Source: Akkermansia muciniphila
GTDB taxonomy: Bacteria > Verrucomicrobiota > Verrucomicrobiia > Verrucomicrobiales > DEV007
NCBI GenBank assembly: GCA_945883495.1
Contig: CAMCXS010000049.1
Location: 1 to 43,698, forward strand
Reading direction: 5' to 3'
Length of the DNA stretch: 43,698 bases
A program made the position numbers and the translations under genes. Below, in pieces: positions 2,376 to 43,698 of the stretch. The notes under the pieces were generated by a model. That model was given only the letters and a program-made list of their open reading frames with translations. It was not told the DNA's origin and searched no databases. The first letter of the stretch is position 1, and the number at the start of each line of letters is the position of its first letter.

Positions 2376-2403
2376 CCTTGCGAAGACCACGAAAGCCTTG
2401 ACC

Positions 2404-3192
2404 TCACCCTCTGCCTTCCCCGGAGTCGTCCGCTTCGCTTCGGGTTGGAGAATTCTCCCGGCGTTTGAGCCGCTCAATTTCGACTTGATCTCCAAGTTTG
2501 GCGATATAGCGAACTAAGGGCTCAGGCCCTACCACGGAATCCTCGGCACTCTGTTCCTCCGCTTCCCTTAAATCCAACCGGACTAATTGCTGCACTTGCC
2601 GAAAGCCTGGAGAAATCGAGAAAATTTGGTCGCCACTGGCCTCGAACCGGTAACTCCGTCCGAGAAAATTGACATCAAACCAATCCGCAAACTGAAACTT
2701 CCCCGCGCAGGACGGATTGTAGGTGTGGATCCCGGCGATCGGAAACTCAGCGTCCAACTCGGCGGCAGCGATGATGGCGACCGCGCCACCTAATCCATGC
2801 CCCGTCACCCAAATGATCTTTTCCTCGGCCTCAAGAAGGCGTAGGGCGGATCGGATAACGTCCTCCAGCTCCGCAAAAGCTTCGTAACAAGCCGCATGAA
2901 CCTCGCCGCTCGGACGCTCCACCACGGGAATCTCCTGCCCGGACTTCTGCTCCTCTTCTAGGGAAAACGCCATGAGCACCAGCTCCTGCTTGGCTGCCAG
3001 GAAGCCGCGAGCCCTCCGCTCAGTGAAGAACTCCCCCGACTCAAACCCCCAATCCGAGAGAACCTCTCCAGCCGTTTCCGTGGGTTCACCAGCCAACTTA
3101 CTGGCCATGGCCAAAATCCACGCTGACTCCGACGAGAGCTTGCGCGAGCGCAACACGTTCAATGACACCGGAATCTGGGAGGGAGGAGACAT
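2404..3192 (-). CDS. lipase class 3-like protein lacking the catalytic serine
   Basis: About 262 residues, counted from the ATG at 3192; an in-frame GTG at 3198 is an alternative. The middle resembles the lipase-3 alpha/beta-hydrolase core: helix AAKQELVLMAF, strand-turn-helix IIWVTGHGLGGAVAIIAAAE, then IHTYNPSCAGKFQFADWF and RFEASGDQIFSISPG. In the family the nucleophile elbow is GHSLGG; here the serine position is glycine, GHGLGG, read from the complement of bases near 2793-2808. The Asp of the triad appears kept (SGDQIF), but I see no histidine at the usual C-terminal position. It is therefore probably not an active serine lipase. There is no signal peptide and the C-terminal tail is charged. 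The gene is isolated between convergent and same-strand neighbours. Confidence 0.6.
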   Translation of the reverse strand: MSPPSQIPVSLNVLRSRKLSSESAWILAMASKLAGEPTETAGEVLSDWGFESGEFFTERRARGFLAAKQELVLMAFSLEEEQKSGQEIPVVERPSGEVHAACYEAFAELEDVIRSALRLLEAEEKIIWVTGHGLGGAVAIIAAAELDAEFPIAGIHTYNPSCAGKFQFADWFDVNFLGRSYRFEASGDQIFSISPGFRQVQQLVRLDLREAEEQSAEDSVVGPEPLVRYIAKLGDQVEIERLKRRENSPTRSEADDSGEGRG

Positions 3193-3277
3193 TTCCACAG
3201 TGACCTCCGAACTCTAGCACTAAGCCCGCGATGCGCTAGGGCGAAAAGCTTCGAATTCGGTCAATCCTTATGGAAGG

Positions 3278-4696: not shown

Positions 4697-6990
4697 TCGC
4701 GAGTCACCGTTTCGTCGAGATTGAGCAGCACGCGCGCGGCGTCGGCGGCGGCAAGCGGAGAGAGGACCGCCAGTTCAGCGTCGCTGGGATTCCGCGAGGT
4801 GCAGCGGCGGAATGCCGTCTCCAAGCCTTCCCGCTGAATGAGCTGGCTCAACGCCTTGGCACATTCATAAAAGGCGGCATCATTCAATAAGGTCAGAGCC
4901 TGCAGCGGCGTGTTGCTCCGGGTCCTCCGCGTGCAACTGCTGAACCCGTCCGGCGCATCGAACACCGTGAGCGAAGGCGGTGGCGAGGCCCGGTAGACAA
5001 AGGTGTAGAGACCACGCCGGTAGCGATCCTCCCCCTTGCTCACTTGCCAGGTCCGTTTGACTTGGCCCTGACCCATGACCCCATCGGGAATCGGCGGATA
5101 CACCGGTGGCCCTCCGATTTTCGATGAAATGAGTCCGCTGGCCGTCAGCGCCACATCCCGCACGATCTCGGCATCGAGCCGCAACCGTTGCTGCCGCGCC
5201 AGCAGGTAATTTCCCGGATCTTTCTCCCGGAGTTCCGGCCGTTGCACCGAACTCTTCCGATAGGTCGCCGATGTCACGATAAGCCGGTGCAGTTCCTTCA
5301 CGTTCCATCCCCCTTCCCGGAAGCTCACGGCCAGCCAATCCAAAAGCTCCGGATGCGTAGGCGCGGTGCCCTGCATGCCGAAGTCATTCTCGGTCTCGAC
5401 CAAGCCACGGCCAAAGTATTGCTGCCAAATCCGGTTCACGATCACACGTGCCGTGATCGGATTTTCCGGACTCATGATCCATTTGGCGAGATCGAGCCGG
5501 TTCGCGCGGCGCTGACTCGGCGCGGAGAACGGGTGGAGCACGGCGGGGGTCCCCGGATTCACCTCTTCCGCCGGCCGGGTGAAGTCACCTTTGATGAGAA
5601 CGTGCGTTTTCCGAGGAACCGCCGCTTCCTTCAAAATCATCGTGGTCACGCCGCCATTGAGGACCGTGTCCACTTCCGCGTAACGATCGTTCAGCTCCCG
5701 AAACACCCCCACGGCTCCGATGCTCGCCGCGAACAGAGCCCGGCTTTGCGCGAACGTCCGCTTCCCAGGCGCAATCTCCAAGATTTTCAGGGTCGCTGCC
5801 GGCATCGTCTTCCGGCTCGCCGGAGTCAGGTCCGCCTCCCAGGCTGCCAACTCTTCGGCCTGCTCCTGCATCCGCGCCGCCAGCTTCTGCTGCAACTCCT
5901 TGAGCTCTTCGGAAAGCCCGCTGACGTCCACACTCGCATCAAAGACCTTCAGCGTGGGCTCATCCTGGCTGTTGAGGAAGGCGAACAGTTGATAATACTC
6001 GCGTTGCTCAATCGGGTCGAACTTGTGGTCGTGGCATTGGGCGCACCCCACCGTCAGCCCAAGCCAAACCGTCCCCGTCGTGGCCACCCGGTCGAAGACG
6101 CTGTCGATCCGGAACTGCTCCTTATCGATCCCGCCTTCTTGGTTGATCTGGGTATTCCGGTGAAATCCGGTCGCGATCTTCTGGCTTTCCGTCGCCCCTG
6201 GCAATAGATCACCCGCCAGCTGCTCGACCGTAAACTGGTCAAACGTCATCCCACTGTTGAGGGCGCCGATGACCCAATCCCGGAACTTCCAAATCTGCCG
6301 CGGCGCATCGATCGAATACCCATTGCTATCGGCATACCGCGCTTGGTCAAGCCACCACCGTCCCCAGCGCTCACCGTAATGCGCACTGCCCAGGAGCCGG
6401 TCGACCAGATCCCGATACGCCTTCTCCGGATCCTTCTGACGTTCCCGCAGGAAGGCATCGACCTCGGCGGTGCCGGGCGGCAAGCCCGTGAGATCCAGGG
6501 AAACGCGGCGGATCAAGGTCGCGGGATCCGCTTCCGGTGAAGCTGCCAGTCCCTCGGAGGTTAGCCGATTCCGGATGAAGGCATCGATCGGGTGTTCCTC
6601 TGCCCTTCCGGGAATCAGCGCGGCCGCTGGCGGCTCAAAAGCCCAGTGTTTCTCATAGCCCGCGCCCTCCTCAATCCATTTCCGCAACGTCTCTTTCTGC
6701 TCCGCCGTGAGCTGCTTCCCCGATTTCTTCGGAGGCATCAGCTCCTCCTCATCCGTCGTGACGACCCGCGCCAGCAACTCGCTGTCTTGCGGTTTGCCCG
6801 GACGAATCACCGCCAAAGCACCATTCCGCGTATCCAGTCGCAGATCCGCTTTGCGCCCCTTCTTGTCGAACCCGTGACACGCGAAACAGTTCTCCGCGAG
6901 GATCGGCCGGACATCCCGGTTGAACGGAATGCCAGCGGAAGCAGCGGAAATCGCAAACAGGAAGCAAGAAAGAAGCCGAAGGAAACTCAT
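4693..6990 (-). CDS. PSCyt1 / DUF1549 / DUF1553 planctomycete-type cytochrome protein
   Basis: A 765-residue exported protein. A signal peptide (about residues 1-19, ending SAASA) precedes a cytochrome-like PSCyt1 domain with the haem motif CFACH at 35-39 and a likely axial methionine in EELMPPKK near 85. DUF1549 follows (about 130-340: [48 protein letters not shown]), then DUF1553 (about 500-745: [49 protein letters not shown]). The second CxxCH belongs to the DUF1549 signature and is not necessarily a haem site. Some relatives carry an extra LamG-like insert that is missing here. The partner DUF1501 gene overlaps it by 4 bp. Proposed roles in polysaccharide or electron-transfer chemistry are unproven. 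Confidence 0.9.
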
Positions 6991-10774: not shown

Positions 10775-11622
10775 AGGCTCGCGATGAGCTTCTCCAGCCG
10801 GTGCGCGAACTCCACCCAAACCACCCGGGCTTCCCCGGTGTCATCGACATCCTGGCCCGCGTGGATCGCCGCCTTGATGTGAGGCTCGATCGACAGCCAG
10901 CCGTTGTAGCCCGTCCGCTCCAGGTCTTCAAAAATCTGGCGCTGGGTCGGATCCTCATCCGCGTGGCACGTCACGTAGGCTCCGTCCGGCCCCGGCTTGG
11001 CGCATTTCACGTGCACGTGAGCAATGTGCTCCCGGCAAGCCTTGTAATACGACCACGTCGATTCACAGGAATTGTCGTGCAGGCTGTTGTTCCCCGTATC
11101 GAAGATGAGCTTGAAGGCCGGGCTGTTCACCGCCTCGGTCAATTCCAGGAAGCCTTCCGCATCCGCGCCGTAGCCATTGCAGTTTTCGTGGCCCAGGATG
11201 ATGCCCTCGCCCTCCGCGATCCGCGCCAACTCACTGATGCGCCGCACCGCCTCAGCCTTCCACTCGGCGCGGGGCAGCGGATTCTCCTTGTGGTTCGGGT
11301 ACGACATGATGCGCAGGAACTTCGTCCCCGTCTGCCGCATCCGCGGCGCGACTCGCTTCAATTCGGCGACGTCGACCGCGAAGTCATTGGTGATCGGCCG
11401 GGCCCAGTTGGCGATTTGTCCGCCAAACCCCACGATTTGAATCTTCTCTTCTCCGAGGCGGTCCCGGGTGTGAGCCCATTCGTCGTCTGTGAGATCACAG
11501 ACGTTCTTGCCTCCGATCAGACGGAGCTCGATGGCGGACCATCCGGTCTCTTTCAGCGTGGCGATTTGTCCCTCAAGACTCTTTTCGGCTTCGTCGGCGA
11601 ATCCGGTAAATTGGAATGGCAT
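10768..11622 (-). CDS. sugar phosphate isomerase/epimerase-like TIM-barrel protein
   Basis: A 284-residue protein of the xylose-isomerase-like AP_endonuc_2 superfamily. Likely divalent-metal ligands sit at the expected strand ends: E146 in ILGHENCNG, D175 in LIFDTGNNS, a histidine of HVHVK (202/204) and E246 in WLSIEPH. No signal peptide is visible (starts MPFQFTGFADEAE), so it should be cytoplasmic. Such proteins interconvert keto sugars or inositols or dehydrate related substrates; the substrate cannot be read from sequence. It lies 67 bp upstream of the SNF2 gene and 93 bp downstream of the membrane-protein gene, all on the same strand. A TTCGG tandem repeat lies 19-38 bp before its ATG. 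Confidence 0.8.
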   Translation of the reverse strand: MPFQFTGFADEAEKSLEGQIATLKETGWSAIELRLIGGKNVCDLTDDEWAHTRDRLGEEKIQIVGFGGQIANWARPITNDFAVDVAELKRVAPRMRQTGTKFLRIMSYPNHKENPLPRAEWKAEAVRRISELARIAEGEGIILGHENCNGYGADAEGFLELTEAVNSPAFKLIFDTGNNSLHDNSCESTWSYYKACREHIAHVHVKCAKPGPDGAYVTCHADEDPTQRQIFEDLERTGYNGWLSIEPHIKAAIHAGQDVDDTGEARVVWVEFAHRLEKLIASLG

Positions 11623-29502: not shown

Positions 29503-30225
29503 ATGGTGCTCCCCATCGCTCCTCCGGAATTCGAAACCGATGCGGCTGGCGCAATTGTGTATCCAGTCGATAACGGAGAACCCTTGGCAAACGATACTGA
29601 ACATCTCGAGTGGATCACCTTCCTCAAGAATGGGTTGGAGGACTGGTTTGCTGACCGCGAAGACGTGTTCGTCGCCGCCGATTTGCTTTGGTATCCGGTG
29701 GAGGGTCGTCCGGACATTTCCAAGGCGCCGGACGTAATGGTGGTTTTGAATCACCCAGCCGGCCACCGAGAAAGCTACCAGCAATGGAAGGAAAATGGCC
29801 GCCCGCCCAATGTGGTCGTTGAGTTCCTGTCTAAAAGCAACACGGCTGAAGAGATCCTCGACAAGTTGGACTTCTACTCCGCCATGGGGTGTGACGAGTT
29901 TTTTGTCTACGACTATCGCCGTGGCAAGTTCCATGCCTACCTTCGCGACCGAGGCGCCGGCTTGAGAGCCCGGGCCCGTAGCGTTGACGGCACCTGGGAC
30001 AGCCCGCTGCTCGGCGTCACCTTTGGGTTGGACGCTTCAGAACAACTCTGGGTGCGCCGGCCAGACGGCAAACTCATGGAGACGCAACGCCAGATATGGA
30101 AGCGCGCCGAGGCGGAAGCCAAACGCGCCGAAGTAGAGGCCCAACGCGCCGAAGCAGAGGCTGCCAAAGCCGCCCGGTTGGCCGCCAAATTGCGGGAAAT
30201 GGGGATCGACCCCGATGCGCTTTGA
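29503..30225 (+). CDS. Uma2-family putative endonuclease with coiled-coil tail
   Basis: A 240-residue protein of the Uma2 (DUF820) PD-(D/E)XK group. The core motif series is APDVMVVL, VVVEFLSKSNTAEEILDKLD and FYSAMGCDEFFVYDYRRGKF, fitting D...E-x-L-S. The last 60 residues are an Ala/Glu/Arg-rich heptad repeat (KRAEAEAKRAEVEAQRAEAE, about 197-216) and end MGIDPDAL. Uma2 genes are multi-copy in cyanobacteria, chloroflexi and verrucomicrobia; a nuclease role is predicted but largely untested. The ATG has an AGGA about eight bases upstream. A second copy is at the window end. Confidence 0.85.
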   Translation: MVLPIAPPEFETDAAGAIVYPVDNGEPLANDTEHLEWITFLKNGLEDWFADREDVFVAADLLWYPVEGRPDISKAPDVMVVLNHPAGHRESYQQWKENGRPPNVVVEFLSKSNTAEEILDKLDFYSAMGCDEFFVYDYRRGKFHAYLRDRGAGLRARARSVDGTWDSPLLGVTFGLDASEQLWVRRPDGKLMETQRQIWKRAEAEAKRAEVEAQRAEAEAAKAARLAAKLREMGIDPDAL

Positions 30226-30313
30226 CATCTCCCGACTAGGGAGAACCCGCTCTTGCCTTTCGCCTAGCCGTGACTAACGTTCCTCTGACAAGCTCTCTAG
30301 CCAGTCAGTAGCC

Positions 30314-31705
30314 ATGAACGCGAAGCAAGCGCCAGTCAAGAACGAGCCCGAACTGAAAGCCTTGCGCCAGAGCCCTGGGAATCGCAACGCCATCGTCTTC
30401 ATCCACGGCTTCACCGGGCACTACATCAGCACGTGGCGGGATTTCCCCAAGTTCGTTCAAGAGGATCCCTCCTTTAGCGGTTGGGACGTCTACTGCTACG
30501 GTTACCAGACAAAGCTGCTCCCCTTTTTCGGCTTTTGGCAAGGCAACCCACCGCTCCCCCGGCTCGCGGTCCAACTGCAAACCGCCGCCAGCATGGAACC
30601 GCTCGGCGATTACTCCGGTATTGCCCTCGTGGCCCACAGCATGGGCGGCCTCGTCGTCCAGCAAGCTCTCGTCATTTCCGAAGAACTCCGCCAACGCGTC
30701 ACCCACGCCTTCTGCTACGGCACACCAAGCGCCGGCCTCGCTAAAGCACGTCTCGGCTCGCTGTTCAATCCCCAGGCTAGGGACATGCGGGCCAAAGGGC
30801 CCTTCATCAAGAAACTCCGCGAGCGCTGGAAGTCCAAAGTCGAACCTCTCCGCGGCTTGAAATTCTTCGCTGTCGCGGGCGATATCGATGAATTCGTCCC
30901 GGCCGATTCCTCCCTCAGCCCCTTCACTTACGACCAGTGCCGGGTCGTTCGCGGCAATCACCTGGAGATCGTCAAACCAGCATCGCCAGAGGCCGATAGC
31001 TACCGCGTTTTCCGCGATGGCATCCTCGACGAGTTGAAAGATCTCCCCTTCCTCGACGCCGCCCGCGTCGCCTCGGAGCGCAACGACTTCCGCAGAGTCG
31101 TCGCCATGCTCGAACCCCACGCCGCTGAGCTGGACGACGTCAACATGGCCAAACTGGTCATCGCTTTGAGCGAACTCGGAGAAGAAGAAAAGGTGCATAC
31201 CCTCCTCGAAGCCCATCCCTGGACCGGTGGCACCGACTTCCTCGGCGTTTGGGCCGGTCAACTGAAGCGCCGTTGGCGTCTCTACGGCCACCGGGCGGAC
31301 ATCAACCGCGCCATTGATCTCTACCGGCAAGGCTGCGAAGAAGCCGAGAAGAATGACGACCACGGCCAAATTCTCTACCACGCCATCAACCTGGCTCACC
31401 TCCTGGAAATCGGCAAACATCAGCGCTCCGCCGCCCGCGACTACGCCCGCAAAGCCCTGACCGCCTGCGCCGCCGCCGATCCGCGAGACTATTGGGTCAT
31501 CGTCACCGAGGCTGAGGCCTACATCTATTTAAACCAGCTGGATCGCGCCAAGGAGCTCTACGCGGAGGCGTTGCAATTCAATCCAGCGCCCCGCCAACTC
31601 AAGACGACCTACCAGCAAGCCTGCTACGCTCTCCCCTCGGCCAGCGACCGCGCCAAGGTGCTCAAGGCCTTCGGCGATCCCGTGGAATTCGCCGCCGCTG
31701 CGTAA
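30314..31705 (+). CDS. alpha/beta-hydrolase fused to TPR/TRAFs-binding-like domain
   Basis: A 463-residue cytoplasmic protein. Residues 22-235 are an alpha/beta-hydrolase: oxyanion motif IVFIHGFTG, nucleophile elbow VAHSMGG with S109, an acidic residue at D190/D192 (AGDIDEF) and H216 in GNHLEIV, so the triad looks complete. From about 245 the chain is helical repeats; WAGQLKRRWRLYG and ILYHAINLAHLLEIG resemble the TRAFs-binding/DUF4071 region found with bacterial signalling and effector proteins. The fusion suggests an esterase or lipase controlled by protein-protein contacts. It lies 88 bp after the Uma2 gene on the same strand, but a shared function is not shown. Confidence 0.72.
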   Translation: MNAKQAPVKNEPELKALRQSPGNRNAIVFIHGFTGHYISTWRDFPKFVQEDPSFSGWDVYCYGYQTKLLPFFGFWQGNPPLPRLAVQLQTAASMEPLGDYSGIALVAHSMGGLVVQQALVISEELRQRVTHAFCYGTPSAGLAKARLGSLFNPQARDMRAKGPFIKKLRERWKSKVEPLRGLKFFAVAGDIDEFVPADSSLSPFTYDQCRVVRGNHLEIVKPASPEADSYRVFRDGILDELKDLPFLDAARVASERNDFRRVVAMLEPHAAELDDVNMAKLVIALSELGEEEKVHTLLEAHPWTGGTDFLGVWAGQLKRRWRLYGHRADINRAIDLYRQGCEEAEKNDDHGQILYHAINLAHLLEIGKHQRSAARDYARKALTACAAADPRDYWVIVTEAEAYIYLNQLDRAKELYAEALQFNPAPRQLKTTYQQACYALPSASDRAKVLKAFGDPVEFAAAA

Positions 31706-31834: not shown

Positions 31835-32383
31835 GTGAACCCCAGTCCGATTCCTGCGCTGCACCACCCGCCGTCTCTCCCGGCGGCGCTCCACAGTTTG
31901 CAGGCGGTCTTCGTCGCGGAAGAAGCCAAGCTGCTCCGCTATGCGTTTGGCCTCGTCGGCCGGCGGGAGATCGCTGAGGAAATCGTCCAGGAAGCGTTTC
32001 TTCAGCTGCACGCCCACTGGGACCAAGTTCGCGAGCCGGTTCCGTGGCTCTACCGCAGCGTGCGCAACCGTTCGGCCAATCACCATCGCGACACCCGCCG
32101 CGAAGTTCTCGGTGACGTGCCGCGAGAACCCGAACTCGGACGGGAAGCACCCGACGAAGCCTTGCGGAGACTCGAAGCGGAAGGTCACCTCCGGCTCGTC
32201 GTCGCGGAACTCGAAGCAACCGACCAAGAACTGCTTCGGCTCAAATACGTGGAAGACCTCAAATACCGCGAAATCGCGGAACGCACCGGCCTCAGCACCG
32301 GAAACGTCGGCTACCGCCTCCACCACATCCTCAAACTGTTGGCGGCCAAACTCCATCAACTCGGCATCGACGGGGTAAACTGA
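31835..32383 (+). CDS. ECF-type sigma-70 family RNA polymerase sigma factor
   Basis: A 182-residue protein starting at GTG 31835. Region 2 spans about 27-90 (EEAKLLRYAFGLVGRREIAE, IVQEAFLQLHAHWD, WLYRSVRNRSANHHRD). Region 4 spans about 125-175 (ELEATDQELLRLKYVEDLKY, REIAERTGLSTGNVGYRLH). The linker between them is short and no extra C-terminal domain is present. It directs RNA polymerase to specific promoters when released from its anti-sigma factor. The next gene, coding for the presumed anti-sigma/STN/VWA protein, starts one base after the stop, so the two are translationally linked. Confidence 0.92.
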   Translation: MNPSPIPALHHPPSLPAALHSLQAVFVAEEAKLLRYAFGLVGRREIAEEIVQEAFLQLHAHWDQVREPVPWLYRSVRNRSANHHRDTRREVLGDVPREPELGREAPDEALRRLEAEGHLRLVVAELEATDQELLRLKYVEDLKYREIAERTGLSTGNVGYRLHHILKLLAAKLHQLGIDGVN

Positions 32384-32384
32384 A

Positions 32385-35300
32385 ATGAACAGCCACACCG
32401 AAGACCACACTCCTCTTCAGCCCTGGACCGACCCAGAACTCGAAGCCCGTGTCGTCGCCCTCATTTTGGGGGAAGCGTCTGATTTTGAGCGGGAGGAGAT
32501 CAAGCGCCACTTGGCGGAGCAGCCGGAACTGCGCCTGTTTAAAGAGCGGATCGAGGAAGTGCATGGCCTGCTCGGGGGGCGGGAGGAGCAGCCGGATTGG
32601 CGGTTATCGGAAGAACGGCGCGCCAAGGTCTTGGCGGCGATTGCCGCAGAATCGAAATCGAAATCGCCTCAGTCCGTTTGGACCCATCCAGCGTTCCGGA
32701 TCGCGGCGACGTTGGTGATCTTAGGTGCAGTCGCGGCAGCCATGTTTGTGAGTTTCCCGGATTACTCCCCTTCTGCCGGAATCCGGGAATCGCGGGTTGC
32801 CATGATGGATGCCCAGTCCCCAGTTGAAAGCGATGAGATCCGTTGGACGGCTCCGGAGCCTGTCGCAGCCGGCACCCGGCTCGGGACCAATGCGTCCGAG
32901 GTGGCACCCAGCAGTGTACCATCCAGCCCCGGGAGTGGCTTTTTGACGGCGGGGGTAGAGCACCAGCAAGAACTCCCCGCCGAGTTCAGGTTCCGGCTTC
33001 GCACCGAAGTTCCCAAGCTCCCCGAGCAGCCAGCCGTGGCCGCCAAAGCAAAAGCCCCCCGCAACCTCCCCTTCCTCTCCTCAGCCTCACCGCCTCCCCC
33101 TCCTGCCAGTGGTCAAGCCGCGGAAGAGGGCGTGGAATGGCAGTCCCAGCCAGGAATGATCCGCACCGACTCCATGAATCGAGCAGGCTCAGCTGCAATC
33201 GAGCGCTCCGGAATGGCTCCCCCCGCCTCACCACCGCGCCCAACAGCAGCAGCCCCCGCCCCGGCCAAACCAGCAGCCAGGGCACGAACGCTGGCGGAAG
33301 CTGACGAGTCATCGACTCTCGCCCAGAAGAGCCTGCCCGCCTTGAGCCAAGCCGGAGGGGAAGGCTTCGGCATCGCTCCCCAGGGCCTAGTGGGAGACAA
33401 GCTGGCCATGAATGCTCCGGCGGAACCCGAACCGGTAGACAGTTTGTCCGGCGGTGGCGGCCGAAAAGCTCTCGGAGCTCTTGCCGCCAGCGGCGGATCG
33501 GCGGTGGCCGGGCAGAGCACTGGGGCCATCCGCGACACCCGCACGACGGTGGATAACGGCCGGGTTCGTCTCGCCCCGCCTCTGAAAATGCTCGACGGCC
33601 CAGACGAAGCCGCCCTCCGCGGAGAACGCCTCCTCGCCAAGAAGGACGAGGACGGCACCGCCCGGGGATTGCAGCGGTCCTCTGACATGCGTCGGGATTC
33701 CGAAGTCCAGCCCATCACCGAGAAGCTCAAGGAAACCGTCATCCCAGAGATCGATTTCCAAGAAGTGCCGCTGTCCAAAGCGCTGGAAGAACTCCAAAAG
33801 AAAATCGCGGAAAATGATCCGAATACGGAGGCCTTGCAACGCGGCGTCAACGTGATCAATCGCGCCTCCTCGCAGCAGCCGCAAGGCCCAGCAGGCACCT
33901 TGGCGTTTGATGACGCGGCCGGGGAACCCAGAATCAACCTCCAGCTCAAAGACGTCCCCGCGGCTGAAGCTCTCCGCTATGTGGCGGAACTCGGCCGGAT
34001 GAAATATAAGGTCGAACCGCACGGCGTGGTCATTTTGCCAGCGACCGAAGGGAACGCCGACCTCTACACCGAAGTCATTCGCGTCCCTCCCAGCTTTCTC
34101 ACCGCCCGCTCCAATCTCGGCGCTCCTGGGGCCGCGCTTTCCGGCGATCCCTTCGCTAGCCTCGGCAACGAGCCTTCGTCAACGGCATTGCAGGCCAAGC
34201 GCACGGCCAAGGACGAGCTGCAGAACGTCGGGGTCACCTTTCCGCCGGACGCTAGCGCGATCTACGATCCGGCCACCGGCCAACTCATTGTCCGCAACAC
34301 GCAGGCGAACCTCGACCTGATCGAGGCCTACATCGATTCCCTAGAAGACGAGGGCGCCGCCGCCCCCCTGGCCGCTGTGTTGCCCAAGCGAGACCGTATT
34401 GCCACCGGACCGATCTCCACCCCAGAAGCCATCCAGACCGCCACCCAGCTTCAATCAACCATTCTCCCCAGCGTGGAGTTCAACGGCACGCCGCTGAGAG
34501 ACGCAGTCGCCGAACTGCAACGGCAATTGCCCACGGTGAAGTTCGACCTTCCGGCCGAAGCCGAAGCACGTGCGTCCCACCCTATTCACCTGAAGCTCAC
34601 GCGGATCTCAGCGCAGGAAGCACTTCGCTACGTCGCGGAGTTGGCCAGCCTCCGCTCCGTCGTGACACCCACCGGAGAAGTGCGGCTTTCGCGCGATCGG
34701 CTTCCCGACACCGCCTACGCTTACCAACTGCCCGCGGCCCTCTGGGAGTTCATCCAGAAACAACAGGATTCTCCGAAATCGATCCGCGAGATCTTCGAAT
34801 CGGCCGGCATCACCTTCCCAGCCGAAGCCGAATTGACCTACGATCCCGTCGTAGAGCGCCTCCAGGTTTACCAAACTGCGGCGAACATCGATCTGATCGA
34901 GGCGTTTCTTGATGCTCAGTTCGCCAAATGGTGGCGTTCCCAACCGCAGGCCAAGCCCGCTCCTCCGGAAACGAAGCTCGAAATCGACTCCGCTACCGAG
35001 CCCTTCTCCACCTTCTCCCTCCACGTCAGCGACGTCTCTTTCCAGCTCGCCCAAGCCGCCTTGGCCAAGAATGAGTGGCCCGAGAAGGAATCGGTCCGCA
35101 TCGAAGAGTTCGTCAACGCCTTCGATTACGGAGATCCCTCTCCGGACGAGGCCGAGCCGGTGGCTTGCCGGATCGAACAAGCTGCCCATCCCTTCCTCCA
35201 GCAGCGCAATCTCCTCCGCTTCGGCGTCCGCACCGCTTCCACCGGCCGCGGCGCCTCCTCACCGTTGCGCCTCACTTTGCTCCTGGATCGCTCCGGTTCC

Positions 35301-36305
35301 ATGGAACGGCCCGACCGCCAGGAGACGGTGCAACGCGCTTTGGAACAGCTCGCCGCGGAGATGCGCGATGGGGATGAACTCACCGTGATCGCCTTCGCCC
35401 GCCAGCCCCGGCTCGTGGTCGATCGCGCCAACCGCGAAGCCGCCGCCAAACTCCCCACCGATCTCGCCGCCATCCCCACCGAAGGCGGAACCAATCTCGA
35501 AGCCGCCCTCTCCTTGGCTGCCCAAAAAGCCCGCGCCACGAAAACGCCCGGCGCCCAAAACCGCATCGTCCTCCTCACCGACGGCGCCGCGAACCTGGGC
35601 GACGCCCATCCCGACCGACTCGCCGAACGGATCCACGCCCTGCGCCAGGAGGGAATCGCCTTCGACGCCGCGGGCATTGGCGCGGATGGATTGAACGACA
35701 CCATCCTCGAAGCCCTCACCCGCAAAGGGGATGGCCGTTACTACCTCCTCAACGGACCCGAGGACGCCGGAGAAGGCTTCGCCCGCAAACTCGCCGGTGC
35801 CTTCCGCCCGGGCGCCAAGGATGTAAAGGTCCAGATCCAGTTCAACCCGGATCGGGTCGGCCGCTACCGCCTCCTCGGCTTCGAGGAACACCGGCTCGAG
35901 AAGGAAGAATTCCGGGACGATACCGTCGATGCCGCCGAGCTCGCCTCCGAAGAAGCCGGGGTGGCCGTTTACCAAGTCGAAGTCAAACCGGACGGCAGCG
36001 GCGATGTCGGCTTCGTCTCCGTCCGCTTCCTCGACGTCGCCAGCGGAGAGCGCGTGGAACGGCGTTGGCTCATCCCGTTTGAGCCGATGACGCCGGGATT
36101 CGACCAAGCCCCGCCCTCCCTGCAACTCGCCGGCCTAGCCGCCTGGACCGCCGCCAAGTTGAAAGACGACCCCGCCGCAGCCAGCACCGATTGGCCATCG
36201 CTGAGCCGCATCCTCGCCGGCTTGCCCGAAGCCTGGAAATCAGCGCCCCGCGTTCGGGGATTGGGAGACGTGCTCAATGTAGCGCAGGCTTTAGCCCGCG
36301 AATGA
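32385..36305 (+). CDS. anti-sigma / STN-repeat / VWA fusion protein
   Basis: A 1306-residue protein. Residues 1-95 resemble a short anti-sigma domain without zinc ligands (DFEREEIKRHLAEQPELR). One membrane helix spans 104-124 (FRIAATLVILGAVAAAMFVSF). A Pro/Ala/Gly-rich linker (130-440) follows. Two STN/secretin-N-like modules come next: module one from I456 (IDFQEVPLSKALEELQ ... LKDVPAAEALRYVAEL), module two from V697 (VEFNGTPLRDAVAELQ ... LTRISAQEALRYVAEL). A VWA_N segment and the VWA domain follow with an intact MIDAS: D968-R-S-G-S972 in LLLDRSGSMERP, then GGTNL and LTDGAANLGD. The C-terminus is DUF3520-like. Topology predicts a cytoplasmic sigma-binding end and an exported sensor end. Confidence 0.85.
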   Translation: MNSHTEDHTPLQPWTDPELEARVVALILGEASDFEREEIKRHLAEQPELRLFKERIEEVHGLLGGREEQPDWRLSEERRAKVLAAIAAESKSKSPQSVWTHPAFRIAATLVILGAVAAAMFVSFPDYSPSAGIRESRVAMMDAQSPVESDEIRWTAPEPVAAGTRLGTNASEVAPSSVPSSPGSGFLTAGVEHQQELPAEFRFRLRTEVPKLPEQPAVAAKAKAPRNLPFLSSASPPPPPASGQAAEEGVEWQSQPGMIRTDSMNRAGSAAIERSGMAPPASPPRPTAAAPAPAKPAARARTLAEADESSTLAQKSLPALSQAGGEGFGIAPQGLVGDKLAMNAPAEPEPVDSLSGGGGRKALGALAASGGSAVAGQSTGAIRDTRTTVDNGRVRLAPPLKMLDGPDEAALRGERLLAKKDEDGTARGLQRSSDMRRDSEVQPITEKLKETVIPEIDFQEVPLSKALEELQKKIAENDPNTEALQRGVNVINRASSQQPQGPAGTLAFDDAAGEPRINLQLKDVPAAEALRYVAELGRMKYKVEPHGVVILPATEGNADLYTEVIRVPPSFLTARSNLGAPGAALSGDPFASLGNEPSSTALQAKRTAKDELQNVGVTFPPDASAIYDPATGQLIVRNTQANLDLIEAYIDSLEDEGAAAPLAAVLPKRDRIATGPISTPEAIQTATQLQSTILPSVEFNGTPLRDAVAELQRQLPTVKFDLPAEAEARASHPIHLKLTRISAQEALRYVAELASLRSVVTPTGEVRLSRDRLPDTAYAYQLPAALWEFIQKQQDSPKSIREIFESAGITFPAEAELTYDPVVERLQVYQTAANIDLIEAFLDAQFAKWWRSQPQAKPAPPETKLEIDSATEPFSTFSLHVSDVSFQLAQAALAKNEWPEKESVRIEEFVNAFDYGDPSPDEAEPVACRIEQAAHPFLQQRNLLRFGVRTASTGRGASSPLRLTLLLDRSGSMERPDRQETVQRALEQLAAEMRDGDELTVIAFARQPRLVVDRANREAAAKLPTDLAAIPTEGGTNLEAALSLAAQKARATKTPGAQNRIVLLTDGAANLGDAHPDRLAERIHALRQEGIAFDAAGIGADGLNDTILEALTRKGDGRYYLLNGPEDAGEGFARKLAGAFRPGAKDVKVQIQFNPDRVGRYRLLGFEEHRLEKEEFRDDTVDAAELASEEAGVAVYQVEVKPDGSGDVGFVSVRFLDVASGERVERRWLIPFEPMTPGFDQAPPSLQLAGLAAWTAAKLKDDPAAASTDWPSLSRILAGLPEAWKSAPRVRGLGDVLNVAQALARE

Positions 36306-36349: not shown

Positions 36350-39300
36350 ATGAACCGCCTGCTCCCGCTCCTCCTCCTGGCCCCCACTCTCTGGGCTCAA
36401 AGCCCGGAAACGCACATCGTCATCGAAGCCAAGGGCCTGGCCCCGGAAATCCCGTTGGTCTTCTCCGCCGCCGCCGAAAGCACGGTGACGATCTCCCACC
36501 GCTCGGTGGAACAACGCATCCAACTCCGCACCACCCGCCTGCAAGGCAAGGGCGTCCTCTCGCTCGGATTGGCCGGGACCGATGGCGCCGTCACCGCCGT
36601 CACCGGGAACGGCCTCAAAGCTTGGGCCGTGCGCCAGGAGGGAGAAGCCCGATTCCTCGATCTCACCGTCGAAGACAACCTCACCGACGGTGCTTTTGAC
36701 CTCACGTTGGAAGCCAAGTTCCGCGGTCTCCCGCGCCCCCTCGACCTCGCTCACCTCCGCCCCGGCAAGGCCGCGTCCCTCACTTCCGTGGTCACGATCC
36801 AGTTCGATCCCCGCGTCGAAGGAACGCTGGCCGATGGCCTCACCGGCTTTGTCACCGTCGCCCCCAAGGAACCGCTCCGCCTCAACTCCACCGGCGGCGG
36901 CCGCATCCCCTTGGAACTCGCCTGGCGCGGTGCCGCTCCCCGCGAAGCCTCGCTCGAACGCGCCAGCCTCACCGGCAAACTGGCCCCGGACGGCAAGTCG
37001 ATCACCTTCTCCCTCGAAGGCCTCGCCGCCGCCTCGGAAGCCGACGTCACCCTCCCGCTCCTCTCCGGAAACGCCGCCGTCACCTCGCTTCCCACCATCG
37101 ATGGCCTCCTCTGGCGGCTCGGCGGATCCGGTCCCGAACCGGTCCATCTCCTCGAATTCGCCCGTGCCGGTCAGTTCCCCTTCACCGCCACCTTCGTCAC
37201 CCCGGTCCGCGAAGAAGGCGAATGGAGCCGCGTCGACTTTGCCCTCCCCGGCGCCGGGGCCGTCGTCCCCGTCCGCATCGAAGGCCTTCCGGCCAAGCTC
37301 GAGTTCGCCCAGAACGGCGTCATCCCGCGCATGAACGGAGCCGCCTGGGAAGGCTTCCTCCCCGCCTCCGGCCGCAGCGAGATCGCCTGGCGCTCGTCCA
37401 CGGAACAGGACGATGGCCGCCTTTTCTTCACCTCAACCTCGGTCGTCGATTGCCGCGCCGGAGCCGGCCTGCTCCGCCAAGATCACCAAATCGAGTTCAA
37501 AGTCCTTCAGGGCAAACTCGAACGCCTCGAACTCGAGATCGCCGGCCCGGGCGAGATCGTCGCCGTCGAAGGAGAAGGCGTCACCGCCTGGAGCGTGGAA
37601 CCCGCCGAAGCCACCCGCAAACTCCTCATCACCCTCGATCGCCCCGCCGAAAGCACCCGCAATCTGGTGGTCCGCACCCAAACCGCCCTCGAGTCGCTTC
37701 CCTTCACCGTCAGCGGCGTCCGTCTTTCCCCAATCGGCGCGGTGCGCCATTCTGGATTCCTCCGCCTCGCCAGTGAGGGTGCGGTCCGACTCGATCCGGT
37801 CGATCTCAACGGTTTGACGCAGCTGGCTCCCACGCAATTCCCCTTGCCTGCGGATCCCGCCTCGCGCCAAGTCTTCGCCTACCGATTCCCCTCCGGCGCC
37901 CACGCCTTCTCCCTCAAGATTGACCGCGTCCAACCCGAGATCGCCGTTTCCCAGGTCACCGTGTATCGCCTCGGTGAAACCTCCCGCGTCATTGACGCCT
38001 CCTTGGAATTCGACATCCGCGAAGCCCCGGTCCGCGAAATCGATCTTCACATCCCGGCGGAGTATTCCGTCGGCGCCGTCGAAGGCAGCCAATTAGCCGA
38101 TCACGTCCCCGGCACGGTCGTGGAAAATGGGCAACGAAGCCTTCGCCTGGTCTTTGCCCAAGGCGTCGAAGGCCGCCACCTCGTGCACCTCGATCTCGAA
38201 TGGAACGGCGCCGCCGCTCTGCCCAGTTGGGCGCTGCCCCGCCTCGAATTCCCCGGCGCCAAGACCGTCACTGGAGACCTCGCCGTGGCAGGCGATCCCG
38301 GGTTCCGCTTGACCTCCGGAGCGGTCACCGGGTTAGCGGAACGGCCGGTCGCTCAGTTCCCCAAAACCGCCAAAGACCTGCAGCAGGCCTTCCGCATCCG
38401 CGACCGCGGTTGGACCGTCTCGATGACCGTGGAACGGCTCCCTCAGAGCGTCCAGGCAGACGTCTTCCACCTCTATTCCCTCAGCGAGCGCCGCGCCCAC
38501 GCCAGCATTTTATTCAACTACCTCGTCACCGGCGCCCCCGTCGCCAATCTTGAAATCGCGATCCCGTCCTCCGCCGAGAACGTGGCCGCGGAAGGGCGGG
38601 ATGTCCGTGGCTGGCAACGCGAAGGCGATGTCCTCAAAGTCGCTCTCCAGCAACCGATCCTTGGCACCTACACGCTTCTCCTCACTTGGCAGGAAGCCCT
38701 GCCTGCGGAAAACGCCGCCATTCGCCCCGGCGCCGCCCAACCGCTTAACGCCGCCTCGGAGCGTGGTTTCCTCCAGGTCGTCAGCCCCATGCAACTCACC
38801 GTCCAAGTGGCCAAGCTGTCTCCGGGCCTCCTCTCCCTTGATCCCATGGAACTCCCGGCGGAGCTCCGCCTCCTCAATTCCGCGCCGCCCTTGGCCACCT
38901 ATCAATACACCTCCCGCCCTTGTGACCTTGACCTCCAGGTCCAATGGTTCGACCGCGCCGGCACCGCGCCGCAACTCGTCGAGTTCGCCGAAGTCGAAGA
39001 TCGCGTCTCCCCAGACGGCGATGTCGTCACCACTCTCAGCGCCTTCGTGAAATCGCGAGGTCAAAGCGGCTTTCGCTTCCAACTCCCGGGCGGGGAATCG
39101 CACCGGCTGTGGAGCGTTTTGGTGGATGGCGCAGCGGTCAACGCCCGTCGCGATGGGGATTGGATGATCGTTCCGCTTCCACCGAGTGCGAATGCCAGCG
39201 TGCCGCTTGAGGTGCAATTGAGGATAGGCCGCGAAGATCAGAAAGAGCACACCACCTTACGGCTTCCCGTCATTGATGCTCCCGTCCTGAAAACCACCTG

Positions 39301-42300
39301 GCGTATCGTGGCGGATGGCAACGGCCGGCTCCTTCCCTTGCAGTTTCCGGCGCAGCTGCCGCAACTTGCGCCCACGGGGAACGGCATCCGCTGGCTTGTG
39401 ACCGCGGGTTTCTGGCCCTTGCTCGGGCTGGCGAGTTTGGTCTGCGCGGCGTTCTTCACCCCACGATGGGCCCCGCTCTGCGCCCTGTTCGCGTTCGGAC
39501 TGGCCGCCCAGCAAACATGGCATGCCTGGCAGACTCGCCCGGAAGCTCCCGCGGCGCTCACGTTGAGCCTGCCGTCCCGCTCCCCCCAGGAATCCATATC
39601 CTTCGCCGTCCGGCATCTCGATCCGGAAGAATGGATGTTCCCCACGGCCGGCCTTTGGTGCTTCGCCGTGGCCGGGGGGCTCTTGCTGTGGCGCCTTCGG
39701 TCCCGCGACAACACCTCCGTCCTCGCCGCGTCCGCAGCCGCCGCCATCGGGGTTCTTTTGCAGCCAAACGGTGCCGTTCTTTTTCTCGGCGCCGTAACCA
39801 TTGGGTTGCTCGTGCGTTGGCTTCCGGTCTGGTGGACGGCGTTCGCGAAAGGTCTGTCTACCCGCCCCCGTCCCGCTCCGGCCGCCGTCCCGATGTCCCT
39901 CCTCGGCCTGTTGCTCTGGGCCGCCCCGGAACACGGCCGCGCCGAGGAGCCCCCGCAACCCTGGCTGACGGAAGACTGGTCCGCGCCCCAAACCATCTCT
40001 GAAACTTGGACGATCCAGGACAAAGAACTCGTCGCCACCGCAAGCCTCAGCGTCGATGGCTCGCCGGGGGACCGCTTTATCTTTCTGTCCGGCACCGCCA
40101 TCCTCACCCGCTTTGAGAGCACCTCTCTTTCCGTGGCCCGGGCTGAGATCTCCGGAACGGGCGCCGTCTACGTGGCCACCTTGAATCCAGGCGCTTCAAC
40201 CGGCCAAGCGGAATTCGCCTATCGCCTCCCCGTCCCCGATCCCTCCGCCGGTTTCCCCATCGCCTCCGGCCCAGCCGCCGTGCACGAGGTACACGCATCT
40301 TACGAGAAACCGGGCTGGATCTTTGAATCTCCCGCCCTCATGTCCGCGACGCCGGATGGCCATTTGCGCCTCGCCGCACAACCCGGCTCCCAAATGACCC
40401 TGAAGCCAAAGGGCCGCGATCCCAAGTCCGAACCCACGGTCTTTCACATCGAATCCCGCCAACTGCTCATCGCCCGCCCCGGCGTGCTCGACGGCCGCCA
40501 CGAGATCTCGGTTCGCCCGTCGCGCGGCTTGGTGAAAGAGCTCCATTTCGAGGTGCCTGAGGGCTTCACGATCAGCGAAGTAGAAGGCCCGGTCCCGAAC
40601 TGGCGTTTCGACGCCGAGGCGCACCGGCTCACCGTTGTTCTCGGGGCAGCCCGCGCTGAGAACTTCGCCCTCAACATCGTCTCTCAACGGACCCTTCCTG
40701 ATCTTCCGGCGGAGGTCACCCTCGCGCCCCTCCGTTGCCAAGACTCTGAAAGCGAAGTCGGCCTGATCGCCGTCGCCACCGGCCCTGAGATCCAGATGGA
40801 GAAAAGCTCCGCGGTCGCGTTTGTCCCCGTCAACCCAGACGATTTCCCGATTCCGGAGGGCGACGCGGTTCTGCATCGCGCTTACCGCTACAGCGCCGCC
40901 GCCGGAGAGATCGCCTTGCGCGCCGTGCCCGTCGATCCCGAAGTCCGGGTCAACAGCGAAGAAATTCTCTCTTTCGGAGAAGAGCGCATCGTCCTCAGCG
41001 CGAAGCTCGCCGTGGAGATTACCCGCGCCGGCCTTTTTCAACTCGGCTTCACCGTGCCCGAGGGATATGAAGTGGAATCCCTCTCCGGCTCCTGCGTCCG
41101 GGACTGGAGCGAGTCCGCCCGCGCCGTGCGCATCAACCTGAATGGCAAGACGACCGGTGCCTGCGAGCTTTCCCTCACCCTCTCCGCTCCCACCCCGCAA
41201 GCGATCCTCTTCCCCGTTCCTCGAATCACGCTCGACGCCGTGAATCGCCAAACCGGCCAGCTCATCGTCCGTCCCGCCGCCGGGATCCGCCTTACTGCCT
41301 CGCAGCGCCGCAATATCTCCGAGCTGGATGCCCGCGCCGCCGGAGCTCCGGGACAGGGAACCTTGGCGTTCCGCATCCTTCATCAAGATTGGTCGCTCGA
41401 TCTCAACGTCGAAAACCTCGAACCTTGGATCGCCGGCCAGGTCCTCCAAGACGTGACCCTCCGGGAAGGGCAAACTCGCACCGCGATCTACGCCAAGCTC
41501 AAGGTGGAACAAGCCTCCGTCCGCAGTCTCCGCATCGGCCTTCCGGCAGACGCCGAATCGGTCCGTGCCGTTGGCGATGCCGTCAGCGATCTGGTCAAGC
41601 TCCCCGGGGACGACGCCACGGCATGGGAACTGCGCTTCCGCCGGAGAATCTTTGGGGACACGGCAGTCCGGATCGAGTTTGATCGGCGCCGCCCCGAGAC
41701 ACAGATCAGCGAAACGGTAACGCCGGCATCCTTCCCGCACGTAAACCAGCTCACGCACCATCTGGCCTTGCGCACCAGCGGCCGGCTGGAGATGGAACCG
41801 CTCCGCCCCGGAGAAGGCTGGCAACCGGCTGACTGGACCGCCCTTGCGCCCGCGCTGCGAGATCAGGGAACCCGCGCCACACCCGCGGAATCCTTGCGCA
41901 TCCTGCCCAATGCAGCCCCCCTCACGGTTTCCGTGCGGCGCAATGAACTGGCGGATGCCCTCCGTCTCCGTGTATCGGCCGGGACCCTGCGCACCGTCCT
42001 TTCCGCCAACGGAGATCAAGTCACCGTCGTCGATATGACGGTTGCCGTCGTGCAACGCGGCAGCCTGGAAATGTCTCTCCCGGAGAACGCCGAGCTTTTT
42101 CACATCCACGTGAACGGAGAAAGCGCCAACGCGGTCCGCTCGGCCAAAGGGTTACGCTTTCATGTCCTCCCCAACGCCGGTGGTTCCACCGGTCATGTCC
42201 AAGTGGCCTATGCCGTGAAATCCCGGACCGCCCGCGCCATCGCCTTGGCGGGGCCCATCCTGGATGTGCCCATGGAGAATCTCGTTTGGCGCGTCTTCCT

Positions 42301-43048
42301 TCCGGACGGACTCCAACTGGCGGATCACCAGGGCGGGTTCCGGCTGGTCAAAGCAGACATCGCCCCGGACTACGACCGCGCCGCCTTCCTCTCCGCCACC
42401 TCCTCCAAGCGCAGTGTGGATGCCCAAGAAGCCGAACAACTGATGCAACAAGCCAACCAGTTCCTCCAATCGGGCCAAAACAACGTCGCTAGCCAAATCT
42501 TCTTCAACGCCGCCAATCGCTCCGGCCTCGACGCCGCTTCCAACGAAGACGCCCGCGTCCAACTCGACAACCTGATGACCCAACAAGCCATCGTCGGCCT
42601 CAACAGCCGCCGCCAACGCCTTCTGATCGACAACGGGATCAATGCCGATTCCGCCCCAGCGCACGATGCCCAACTCGCCAAAGCCGCCAGCGGCAACGCC
42701 GTTCTCAATGCCGGCAAAACCGAACTCGCCCCCCAGGAGATCAGTCACCTCCTCCAAGCGGGTTCCGGCGAGGACCAGGCCGCCTTGCGCCGCATCGCCA
42801 CCCGGATCGTGGAACAGCAACAGGGCACCATCACGGCCCCCAAATCCATCTCCATGCTCCTCCCCGAAGGCGGACGCGTCCACGAATTCCTCCGTCCCGT
42901 CCAAGCCGGCGAGGGCTCTCCACTCGATCTCCGCATTTCCCTGGTTCCCTCCCAAGCGCCTGGCTTTGCCCAATGGCTGATCACCGGAATGGCCGTCCTG
43001 GGCGTCGCGGTCGCGCCAATCCTCGGCCGAAAGCGGAATTCACCTTGA
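36350..43048 (+). CDS. giant duplicated envelope protein downstream of the sigma/anti-sigma pair
   Basis: A 2232-residue protein with an N-terminal signal peptide (LLPLLLLAPTLWAQ). Half one (about 20-1010) is beta-rich. A cluster of about five hydrophobic segments spans 1014-1195 (WLVTAGFWPLLGLASLVCAA; TAGLWCFAVAGGLLLW; GAVLFLGAVTIGLLVRWLPV; MSLLGLLLWAAP). Half two (about 1200-2150) is again beta-rich, followed by a Gln/Asn-rich helical part and a final anchor (WLITGMAVLGVAVAPILG) with a KRN tail. The halves repeat each other: AYRFPSGAHAF at 510 and AYRYSAAAGEI at 1511; AFRIRDRGWTVSMTVERL at 680 and AFRILHQDWSLDLNVENL at 1673. No enzymatic motif is recognised. It lies 44 bp after the VWA gene. 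Confidence 0.75.
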   Translation: MNRLLPLLLLAPTLWAQSPETHIVIEAKGLAPEIPLVFSAAAESTVTISHRSVEQRIQLRTTRLQGKGVLSLGLAGTDGAVTAVTGNGLKAWAVRQEGEARFLDLTVEDNLTDGAFDLTLEAKFRGLPRPLDLAHLRPGKAASLTSVVTIQFDPRVEGTLADGLTGFVTVAPKEPLRLNSTGGGRIPLELAWRGAAPREASLERASLTGKLAPDGKSITFSLEGLAAASEADVTLPLLSGNAAVTSLPTIDGLLWRLGGSGPEPVHLLEFARAGQFPFTATFVTPVREEGEWSRVDFALPGAGAVVPVRIEGLPAKLEFAQNGVIPRMNGAAWEGFLPASGRSEIAWRSSTEQDDGRLFFTSTSVVDCRAGAGLLRQDHQIEFKVLQGKLERLELEIAGPGEIVAVEGEGVTAWSVEPAEATRKLLITLDRPAESTRNLVVRTQTALESLPFTVSGVRLSPIGAVRHSGFLRLASEGAVRLDPVDLNGLTQLAPTQFPLPADPASRQVFAYRFPSGAHAFSLKIDRVQPEIAVSQVTVYRLGETSRVIDASLEFDIREAPVREIDLHIPAEYSVGAVEGSQLADHVPGTVVENGQRSLRLVFAQGVEGRHLVHLDLEWNGAAALPSWALPRLEFPGAKTVTGDLAVAGDPGFRLTSGAVTGLAERPVAQFPKTAKDLQQAFRIRDRGWTVSMTVERLPQSVQADVFHLYSLSERRAHASILFNYLVTGAPVANLEIAIPSSAENVAAEGRDVRGWQREGDVLKVALQQPILGTYTLLLTWQEALPAENAAIRPGAAQPLNAASERGFLQVVSPMQLTVQVAKLSPGLLSLDPMELPAELRLLNSAPPLATYQYTSRPCDLDLQVQWFDRAGTAPQLVEFAEVEDRVSPDGDVVTTLSAFVKSRGQSGFRFQLPGGESHRLWSVLVDGAAVNARRDGDWMIVPLPPSANASVPLEVQLRIGREDQKEHTTLRLPVIDAPVLKTTWRIVADGNGRLLPLQFPAQLPQLAPTGNGIRWLVTAGFWPLLGLASLVCAAFFTPRWAPLCALFAFGLAAQQTWHAWQTRPEAPAALTLSLPSRSPQESISFAVRHLDPEEWMFPTAGLWCFAVAGGLLLWRLRSRDNTSVLAASAAAAIGVLLQPNGAVLFLGAVTIGLLVRWLPVWWTAFAKGLSTRPRPAPAAVPMSLLGLLLWAAPEHGRAEEPPQPWLTEDWSAPQTISETWTIQDKELVATASLSVDGSPGDRFIFLSGTAILTRFESTSLSVARAEISGTGAVYVATLNPGASTGQAEFAYRLPVPDPSAGFPIASGPAAVHEVHASYEKPGWIFESPALMSATPDGHLRLAAQPGSQMTLKPKGRDPKSEPTVFHIESRQLLIARPGVLDGRHEISVRPSRGLVKELHFEVPEGFTISEVEGPVPNWRFDAEAHRLTVVLGAARAENFALNIVSQRTLPDLPAEVTLAPLRCQDSESEVGLIAVATGPEIQMEKSSAVAFVPVNPDDFPIPEGDAVLHRAYRYSAAAGEIALRAVPVDPEVRVNSEEILSFGEERIVLSAKLAVEITRAGLFQLGFTVPEGYEVESLSGSCVRDWSESARAVRINLNGKTTGACELSLTLSAPTPQAILFPVPRITLDAVNRQTGQLIVRPAAGIRLTASQRRNISELDARAAGAPGQGTLAFRILHQDWSLDLNVENLEPWIAGQVLQDVTLREGQTRTAIYAKLKVEQASVRSLRIGLPADAESVRAVGDAVSDLVKLPGDDATAWELRFRRRIFGDTAVRIEFDRRRPETQISETVTPASFPHVNQLTHHLALRTSGRLEMEPLRPGEGWQPADWTALAPALRDQGTRATPAESLRILPNAAPLTVSVRRNELADALRLRVSAGTLRTVLSANGDQVTVVDMTVAVVQRGSLEMSLPENAELFHIHVNGESANAVRSAKGLRFHVLPNAGGSTGHVQVAYAVKSRTARAIALAGPILDVPMENLVWRVFLPDGLQLADHQGGFRLVKADIAPDYDRAAFLSATSSKRSVDAQEAEQLMQQANQFLQSGQNNVASQIFFNAANRSGLDAASNEDARVQLDNLMTQQAIVGLNSRRQRLLIDNGINADSAPAHDAQLAKAASGNAVLNAGKTELAPQEISHLLQAGSGEDQAALRRIATRIVEQQQGTITAPKSISMLLPEGGRVHEFLRPVQAGEGSPLDLRISLVPSQAPGFAQWLITGMAVLGVAVAPILGRKRNSP

Positions 43049-43080
43049 AATGGCTGGCTGGCGATTCATCGCTGGCCACC

Positions 43081-43653
43081 TCACCCATCCAGTTCCACGC
43101 CCCGGTAGATTTCGGCCAAGGGGATGACGCACCCCACGGAGTCGATCCTCAACAGATCGCCAGGCTGGTGCAACGAATGGTAGAGCCACTCCGCACCCTG
43201 GCGGCGGAAAACGTCCACGGCCAGGCTGGTCTGCGAGACGAGGATGTATTCCTGGAGGCTAGGCAATGTCTGGTAGCGATGGAACTTGCCGCCACGATCG
43301 TAGGGTTCCGTGCTGACGGAAAGGACTTCGATGATGAACGAGGGGTTCGTGTAGGCGTCCTTCGCCTCATCGTAAAGCTGGACGGGCCCGCACAAACCCG
43401 AGACATCGGGGTACACAAACGTGTTCGCGGCTTCGATCCGCACCTTCATATCGGAGCCGACGGCGATGCAGGGGCGGTCTTTCAGGGCGTTGCCAACCTC
43501 CCGGAGGCAATTGGCGGCGATGACATTGTGCCGCAAAGTGCCGCCCGCCATCGCAAAGATCTCACCGTCCACATACTCGCTACGCGTCTCCGCCGCCCGC
43601 TCCAGAGCGAGATACTCCTGCGGAGAAAGCCAAGGCTTGCGCAACGCGGACAT
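43081..43653 (-). CDS. Uma2-family putative endonuclease, second copy
   Basis: About 190 residues from the ATG at 43653 (MSALRKPWLSPQEYLALER, the usual family opening). In-frame ATG 43668 and TTG 43692 are less likely. The PD-(D/E)XK signature is clear: RSEYVDGEIFAMAGGTLRHN, YPDVSGLCG, FIIEVLSVSTEPYDRGGKFH, RYQTLPSLQEYILVSQ. It is shorter than the copy at 29503, without the coiled-coil tail. It converges on the giant gene with a 32-bp gap. Function in DNA metabolism or genome defence is predicted, not shown. Confidence 0.9.
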   Translation of the reverse strand: MSALRKPWLSPQEYLALERAAETRSEYVDGEIFAMAGGTLRHNVIAANCLREVGNALKDRPCIAVGSDMKVRIEAANTFVYPDVSGLCGPVQLYDEAKDAYTNPSFIIEVLSVSTEPYDRGGKFHRYQTLPSLQEYILVSQTSLAVDVFRRQGAEWLYHSLHQPGDLLRIDSVGCVIPLAEIYRGVELDG

Positions 43654-43698
43654 CGGTAGGGAAAGCATGGGGCAGCCCAACAGTGGATTCAAGTTTGC

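Follow-up and report, generated by a model that had tools for sequence, protein, structure and literature searches.

The fbcH gene of Bradyrhizobium encodes a cytochrome b/c1 precursor that signal peptidase cleaves in two at a signal peptide within the chain. The protein considered here is unrelated to that precursor, and its two products would, unlike those of fbcH, be duplicated paralogues. In terms of predicted fold, the closest described systems are the M1 aminopeptidases, in which a saddle-shaped beta domain precedes the catalytic domain, and ribophorin I/Ost1 of the oligosaccharyltransferase, in which a membrane helix carries a pair of similar luminal beta domains (PMC7226087).

The window, that is, the whole stretch of 43,698 nucleotides that was analysed, contains a gene for a protein of 2232 residues that has no Pfam match (E<0.1) and no NCBIfam match (Table 1). 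The protein consists of two tandemly duplicated halves, between which lie a membrane cluster and a second export signal, this one internal. It belongs to a family of around 2300 residues that occurs in two large phyla within a conserved sigma factor cluster, yet is without a Pfam or NCBIfam model, and the literature on bacterial polyproteins, giant genes and VWA/ECF clusters in Planctomycetes yielded no paper on it. The explanation that we favor, with a probability of roughly 0.6 for the whole, combines a tandem duplication, two separate exports, cleavage between the halves, a role of the products as scaffolds and membership of a sigma factor-linked envelope module.

Table 1. Features of the gene and its upstream neighbors (window coordinates; residues of the 2232-aa protein; a slash marks the predicted cleavage site)
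Feature	Position	Strand	Basis
ECF sigma factor, first gene of the conserved cluster	31835..32383	+	family match
1306-aa membrane protein, STN-like (secretin N) and VWA/YfbK_C domains, directly upstream	32385..36305	+	family match, loci
Duplicated envelope protein, whole gene, 2232 aa	36350..43048	+	open frame, self-alignment, relatives
Predicted N-terminal signal peptide, residues 1-16 (MNRLLPLLLLAPTLWA/Q)	36350..36397	+	sequence; N-terminal hydrophobic segment kept in relatives
N half, beta unit N1 (359-500), best pair C1	37424..37849	+	model, unit profiles
N half, beta unit N2 (505-670), best pair C2	37862..38359	+	model, unit profiles
N half, beta unit N3 (675-840), best pair C3	38372..38869	+	model, unit profiles
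N half, beta unit N4 (845-1005), M1-aminopeptidase N-domain-like fold	38882..39364	+	model, profiles, structure match
Five predicted membrane helices (1012-1036, 1041-1061, 1099-1118, 1121-1136, 1141-1167)	39383..39850	+	AlphaFold model (mean pLDDT 87)
Hypervariable linker (1168-1180), basic in most relatives, predicted cytoplasmic	39851..39889	+	alignment, charges
Internal signal-peptide-like segment (1181-1198; PMSLLGLLLWAAPEHGRA/EE)	39890..39943	+	sequence, relatives, sister system
C half, beta unit C1 (1365-1502)	40442..40855	+	model, unit profiles
C half, beta unit C2 (1507-1655)	40868..41314	+	model, unit profiles
C half, beta unit C3 (1670-1840)	41357..41869	+	model, unit profiles
C half, beta unit C4 (1846-1998), M1-aminopeptidase N-domain-like fold	41885..42343	+	model, profiles, structure match
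Helical insert in C4 (2010-2160), where the N half has the TM1-TM2 hairpin	42377..42829	+	model
C-terminal membrane helix (2206-2228), equivalent to N-half TM3	42965..43033	+	model, profile alignment

Two homologous halves built of beta units

Comparison of residues 1-1160 with residues 1161-2232 gave a single BLASTP alignment, which pairs residues 373-986 with 1378-1982 over 640 columns, with 23% identity and a score of 102 bits (E 6e-26); shuffling the C half 200 times never brought the score above 28.5 bits. The two halves match by phmmer at E 6e-27, and in profile-profile alignment the E value fell to 8e-39 (756 columns) when each half was represented by 13 sequences and to 7.5e-48 (914 columns) when 63 sequences were used, the latter alignment taking in nearly the whole C half up to its C-terminal membrane helix. 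Furthermore, the end of the C half, comprising its last two strands and the terminal membrane helix, matches residues 1067-1118 of the N half (hhalign probability 83, against 1-8 for control segments). The original prediction had proposed an internal tandem duplication on the basis of motifs recurring at a distance of about 1000 residues, namely AYRF at 510 and AYRY at 1511, AFRIRDRGW at 680 and AFRILHQDW at 1673, and EIVAVEGEGVTAWSV at 402-416 and TISEVEGPVPNWRF at 1407-1420, together with the hydrophobic MSLLGLLLWAAPEHGRA at 1182-1198. All of these are in place, the repeat spacing is about 1005 residues, the similarity extends significantly beyond the quoted motifs, and self-alignment, profiles and the tree described below all bear the duplication out.

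Structure models (mean pLDDT 87 and 88) indicate that each half contains a series of four all-beta units, each about 165 residues long. Mutual best matches among the eight unit profiles are N1-C1, N2-C2, N3-C3 and N4-C4 (hhalign probability 98-99), from which it follows that the unit was duplicated first and the whole protein later. N1, N2 and N3 also resemble one another, more weakly but clearly (probability 94-97), and N4 and C4 are the units most divergent from the others. In the models, the last unit is broken at the same place in both halves, by the TM1-TM2 hairpin in the N half and by a helical domain in the C half, and in both the break is followed by the final two strands and a membrane helix. 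The two strands that complete N4 are modelled after TM2, at about 1069-1090, and the TM2-TM3 loop that bears them has a length of 40-42 residues in 63 of 63 sequences. In one genome a 261-aa frame (G444:C1:352776-353471), kilobases from the full gene, matches only the C-half helical domain and final helix.

The predicted structures of single units resemble the non-catalytic N-terminal domain of M1 aminopeptidases (such as E. coli PepN, ERAP1 and LTA4H) and TAF2, with Z scores of 12-15 and an rmsd of around 3-4 Å over 139-162 residues; the saddle-shaped domain is thus present by predicted structure alone. The HEXXH zinc-binding catalytic motif of Peptidase_M1 is absent from all 2232 residues. 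Whereas M1 aminopeptidases have a catalytic domain, this protein has none and carries its units in tandem arrays on membrane anchors. As whole chains, both halves find their best structural match in ribophorin I/Ost1, with Foldseek E values of 2e-9 and 2e-11 and a VIA Z score of about 15 across 297-336 residues, at 10-14% identity and an overall rmsd of around 20 Å that reflects differing domain orientations. The models (VIA/Foldseek) reproduce the ribophorin-I-like layout of tandem, similar beta domains held outside the membrane on a membrane helix, although in a bacterial protein and with many more units. The Ribophorin_I Pfam model has no match at E<0.1, and comparison of the family profiles with PDB sequences returned no Ost1/RPN1 match, only chance or TPR-like hits. 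Sequence similarity thus gives no support to common descent with the M1 N-domains or ribophorin I; the predicted likeness may bear on the origin of both. Foldseek rows for integrin and alpha-2-macroglobulin were discarded as weak matches to generic beta arrays (overall rmsd 20-50 Å).

The membrane joint, the relatives and a sister system

Between the halves, the five predicted membrane helices are followed in the model by a short helix of 13 residues (1179-1191). Counted per 100 residues, K+R amounts to 14 and 24 in the predicted inside loops, 5 and 6 in the outside loops and 18 in the linker, a pattern consistent with an odd number of helices followed by a linker in the cytoplasm. This linker is the least conserved region of the protein (0.21, against about 0.6 for the units) and is variable in length; in 63 of 63 sequences it is followed by a hydrophobic segment with a signal-peptidase-type (-3,-1) site. 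Sequence, model and charges together thus provide an n-region, a short h-region and a (-3,-1) site after an odd number of membrane helices. A signal-peptide-like segment is also present in most of the distant relatives, and this genome encodes signal peptidase I. The suspicion that residues 1182-1198 look like a second signal peptide has therefore held up, as far as its form in the 63 sequences is concerned, and in the sister system introduced below its counterpart serves as a genuine N-terminal signal peptide in all cases where the genes are separate.

Scanning the genome collection with the single protein retrieved no relatives; an alignment query built from 18 relatives gave 179 matches, of which 80 were kept. 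The 62 named relatives with complete single frames, of 2224-2632 aa and from Verrucomicrobiota and Planctomycetota, are all fused. Carriers are Rhodopirellula, Rubripirellula, Stieleria, Haloferula, Luteolibacter, Roseibacillus, Chthoniobacter and many metagenome genomes, with cultured representatives in Rhodopirellula, Stieleria, Haloferula and Luteolibacter. The C-half profile matches 71 of the 387 genomes sampled in Verrucomicrobiota, a few of the 71 being the sister system, and fused frames of about 2050-2500 aa are the rule.

The two halves of this protein were never found as separate genes: the single-half frames that were looked at lie at or near contig ends or are broken. A 1095-aa candidate for a separate C half (G016) was rejected: its frame is open upstream through TM5 and the linker, to assembly-like junk at the contig end. 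Irregular loci include one in Rhodopirellula baltica BR-MGV (L167:9785-13168) with an N half only (1127 aa), the C half missing and the upstream VWA protein also seemingly broken into two frames, which may be a decaying locus or an assembly fault. Another (L126:9851-16867, on the same contig as L013/L038) has one in-frame TGA within the C half. Rubritalea profundi (L143:9851-16752) has an N half that breaks at residue 525, the two pieces overlapping by 4 bases (11425-11428), which is either a frameshift or a real split gene.

A sister system is encoded in the same genome on contig C108 as three proteins, P1, P2 and P3, of 1184, 1042 and 1172 aa, whose genes have 4-base overlaps. Profiles show the N half, the C half, P1, P2 and P3 all to be homologous over about 700-850 columns. 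The two systems (C108 and L047 for the sister) have in common homologous units, signal peptides, membrane ends and fusion via the same kind of internal signal peptide; the sister system differs in its three proteins, its other flanking genes, an STN domain that is sometimes inside P2, and its separate clades in the tree. It was also here, and only here, that the search proposed earlier for relatives encoded as two genes succeeded: in the 35 genomes with P3, P2 and P3 are separate in 24 (this genome included) and fused in 11. Fusion is via the P2 membrane helices and the segment that is the N-terminal signal peptide of P3 when the genes are separate. Split and fused forms both occur within one genus, and the state has changed, always at this segment, at least six times on the P3 tree, five being the safer count since one change (G090, L204) has the appearance of a frame broken within the signal peptide. 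Fused P2-P3 proteins (L046:9609-16928, L198-L203 and L217) reach up to 3380 aa, and a family scan of that from L046 gave no match above the cut-off.

Origin of the fusion and processing of its product

Each of the five groups comes out monophyletic (100) in a tree built from 66 sequences over 778 columns, and the N and C halves lie on one side of a branch as sisters (SH-aLRT 96), which makes their duplication an old one. A tree constrained to group the N half with P2 is 12.4 log units worse and is rejected (p-AU 0.026). Both results favor a single tandem duplication before the family spread over a fusion inherited with P2-P3, a conclusion that the sequences allow with moderate confidence, given that the tree comes from a quick search and has long inner branches. 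Of the two origins that the original prediction had offered, one duplicated gene is thus supported, and fusion of formerly separate paralogues is disfavored. In the latter case, two older, separately encoded exported paralogues such as P2 and P3 would have become fused, the duplication being much older than the fusion. P2 and P3 do exist in both states, and the order and C-terminal helical stretch of P3 parallel those of the C half; however, the tree joins the two halves and rejects a clade of N half and P2, and the single-half frames of the present protein that were looked at include no intact gene, which together make a paralogue fusion improbable.

A tandem duplication would have started from one exported, membrane-anchored protein with a signal peptide, beta units and a C-terminal helix, the halves staying fused. 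In the proposed scheme, the N-terminal signal peptide would export the N half, the five membrane helices would return the chain to the cytoplasmic side, and the linker and second signal peptide would direct the export of the C half, whose end forms a membrane anchor of its own. Signal peptidase I would most likely cut after residue 1198 (GRA/EE) to give two anchored periplasmic proteins in equal number, the N half on five helices and the C half on its C-terminal helix. Both may be M1-N-domain/ribophorin-like arrays of beta units that, lacking a catalytic site, would act as a binding scaffold. Conservation of the internal signal in every one of the 63 sequences argues that one gene probably yields two exported proteins, and we consider it likely that signal peptidase does cut the fused chain. 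Should this be the case, the family would represent a bacterial polyprotein of wide distribution, and the sister system, in which genes have repeatedly fused and split at the signal peptide, would offer a natural experiment on when genes can be fused without cost.

The main rival to cleavage is an uncleaved polytopic protein in which the internal segment is a signal anchor, and the beta arms stay covalently linked. As a sixth membrane helix, the segment would produce the same topology, and every complete relative retains the fusion, in contrast to the sister system, where split and fused forms alternate; linkage could therefore matter, and this strict fusion is the chief counter-argument to cleavage. 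The loose (-3,-1) rule was dropped as evidence because it is not specific, being satisfied after real membrane helices in 29-54 of 63 sequences. The strict [AV]xA site is more telling: it follows the internal segment in 39 of 63 sequences but true membrane helices of the same proteins in only 5-16, and shuffled tails give a mean of 24.9 and a maximum of 33, counts to be read in the knowledge that these proteins are alanine-rich. GRA/EE, the site in the 2232-residue protein itself, fits the weaker rule only. An anchor is also at odds with the short h-region and with a distant relative (L251, frame 1468-5973, minus strand) in which the segment before the C domain ends in a lipobox-like LAAAGC, a sequence that would make sense only if the chain is cut and that suggests a lipidated C-half product. 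Finally, free alternation in the sister system implies that one- and two-gene forms are interchangeable there, as would be expected if the product is cut anyway. On balance, an uncleaved chain seems rather unlikely. Far less credible still is additional, separate production of the C half from an internal translation start at the ATG of residue 1182: this in-frame ATG does lie right before the hydrophobic segment, but no Shine-Dalgarno-like sequence stands ahead of it in this gene, and among the 63 sequences an ATG is found in 25 and a start codon with a Shine-Dalgarno-like tetramer in 8.

Gene neighborhood and possible function

The VWA/STN gene is directly upstream in 39 of the 44 named loci with enough upstream sequence, and in 36 of the 44 an ECF sigma factor gene precedes it. 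The identity of the sigma factor in the window is certain. The N terminus of the 1306-aa membrane protein appears to resemble an anti-sigma domain (zf-HC2, E 0.087, short of the model cut-off), and this protein may restrain the sigma factor. Its STN-like stretch (432-656) matches the NCBIfam model for the Amuc_1098 type IV pilus outer membrane protein at E 1e-59, a match that falls far below the model's cut-off; some genomes with the sister system (L049, L053) carry sequence related to this stretch within P2.

Judged from neighbors and fold, the best guess at function is an envelope-sensing or envelope-assembly module, which is plausible because the gene usually follows those for the ECF sigma factor and the VWA/STN membrane protein. 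More tentatively, the two products might form a scaffold or sensor with these two proteins. The fullest form of the proposal, to which we would give slightly less than even odds, is that of an unnamed envelope system of Planctomycetota and Verrucomicrobiota: a polyprotein of two anciently duplicated ribophorin/M1-N-like arrays, each exported by its own signal peptide, would be cut by signal peptidase into the partners of an obligate 1:1 pair, which would sense or build the envelope under the control of an ECF sigma factor, and lineages with the sister system would switch between one and two genes because the product is the same.

A 228-aa open reading frame (42973-43659) that overlaps the 3' end of the 2232-aa gene and is without a family match is probably a chance one. 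Just upstream of the cluster, at 29503-31705, are a Uma2-type nuclease gene and a gene for an alpha/beta hydrolase-TPR-S protein.
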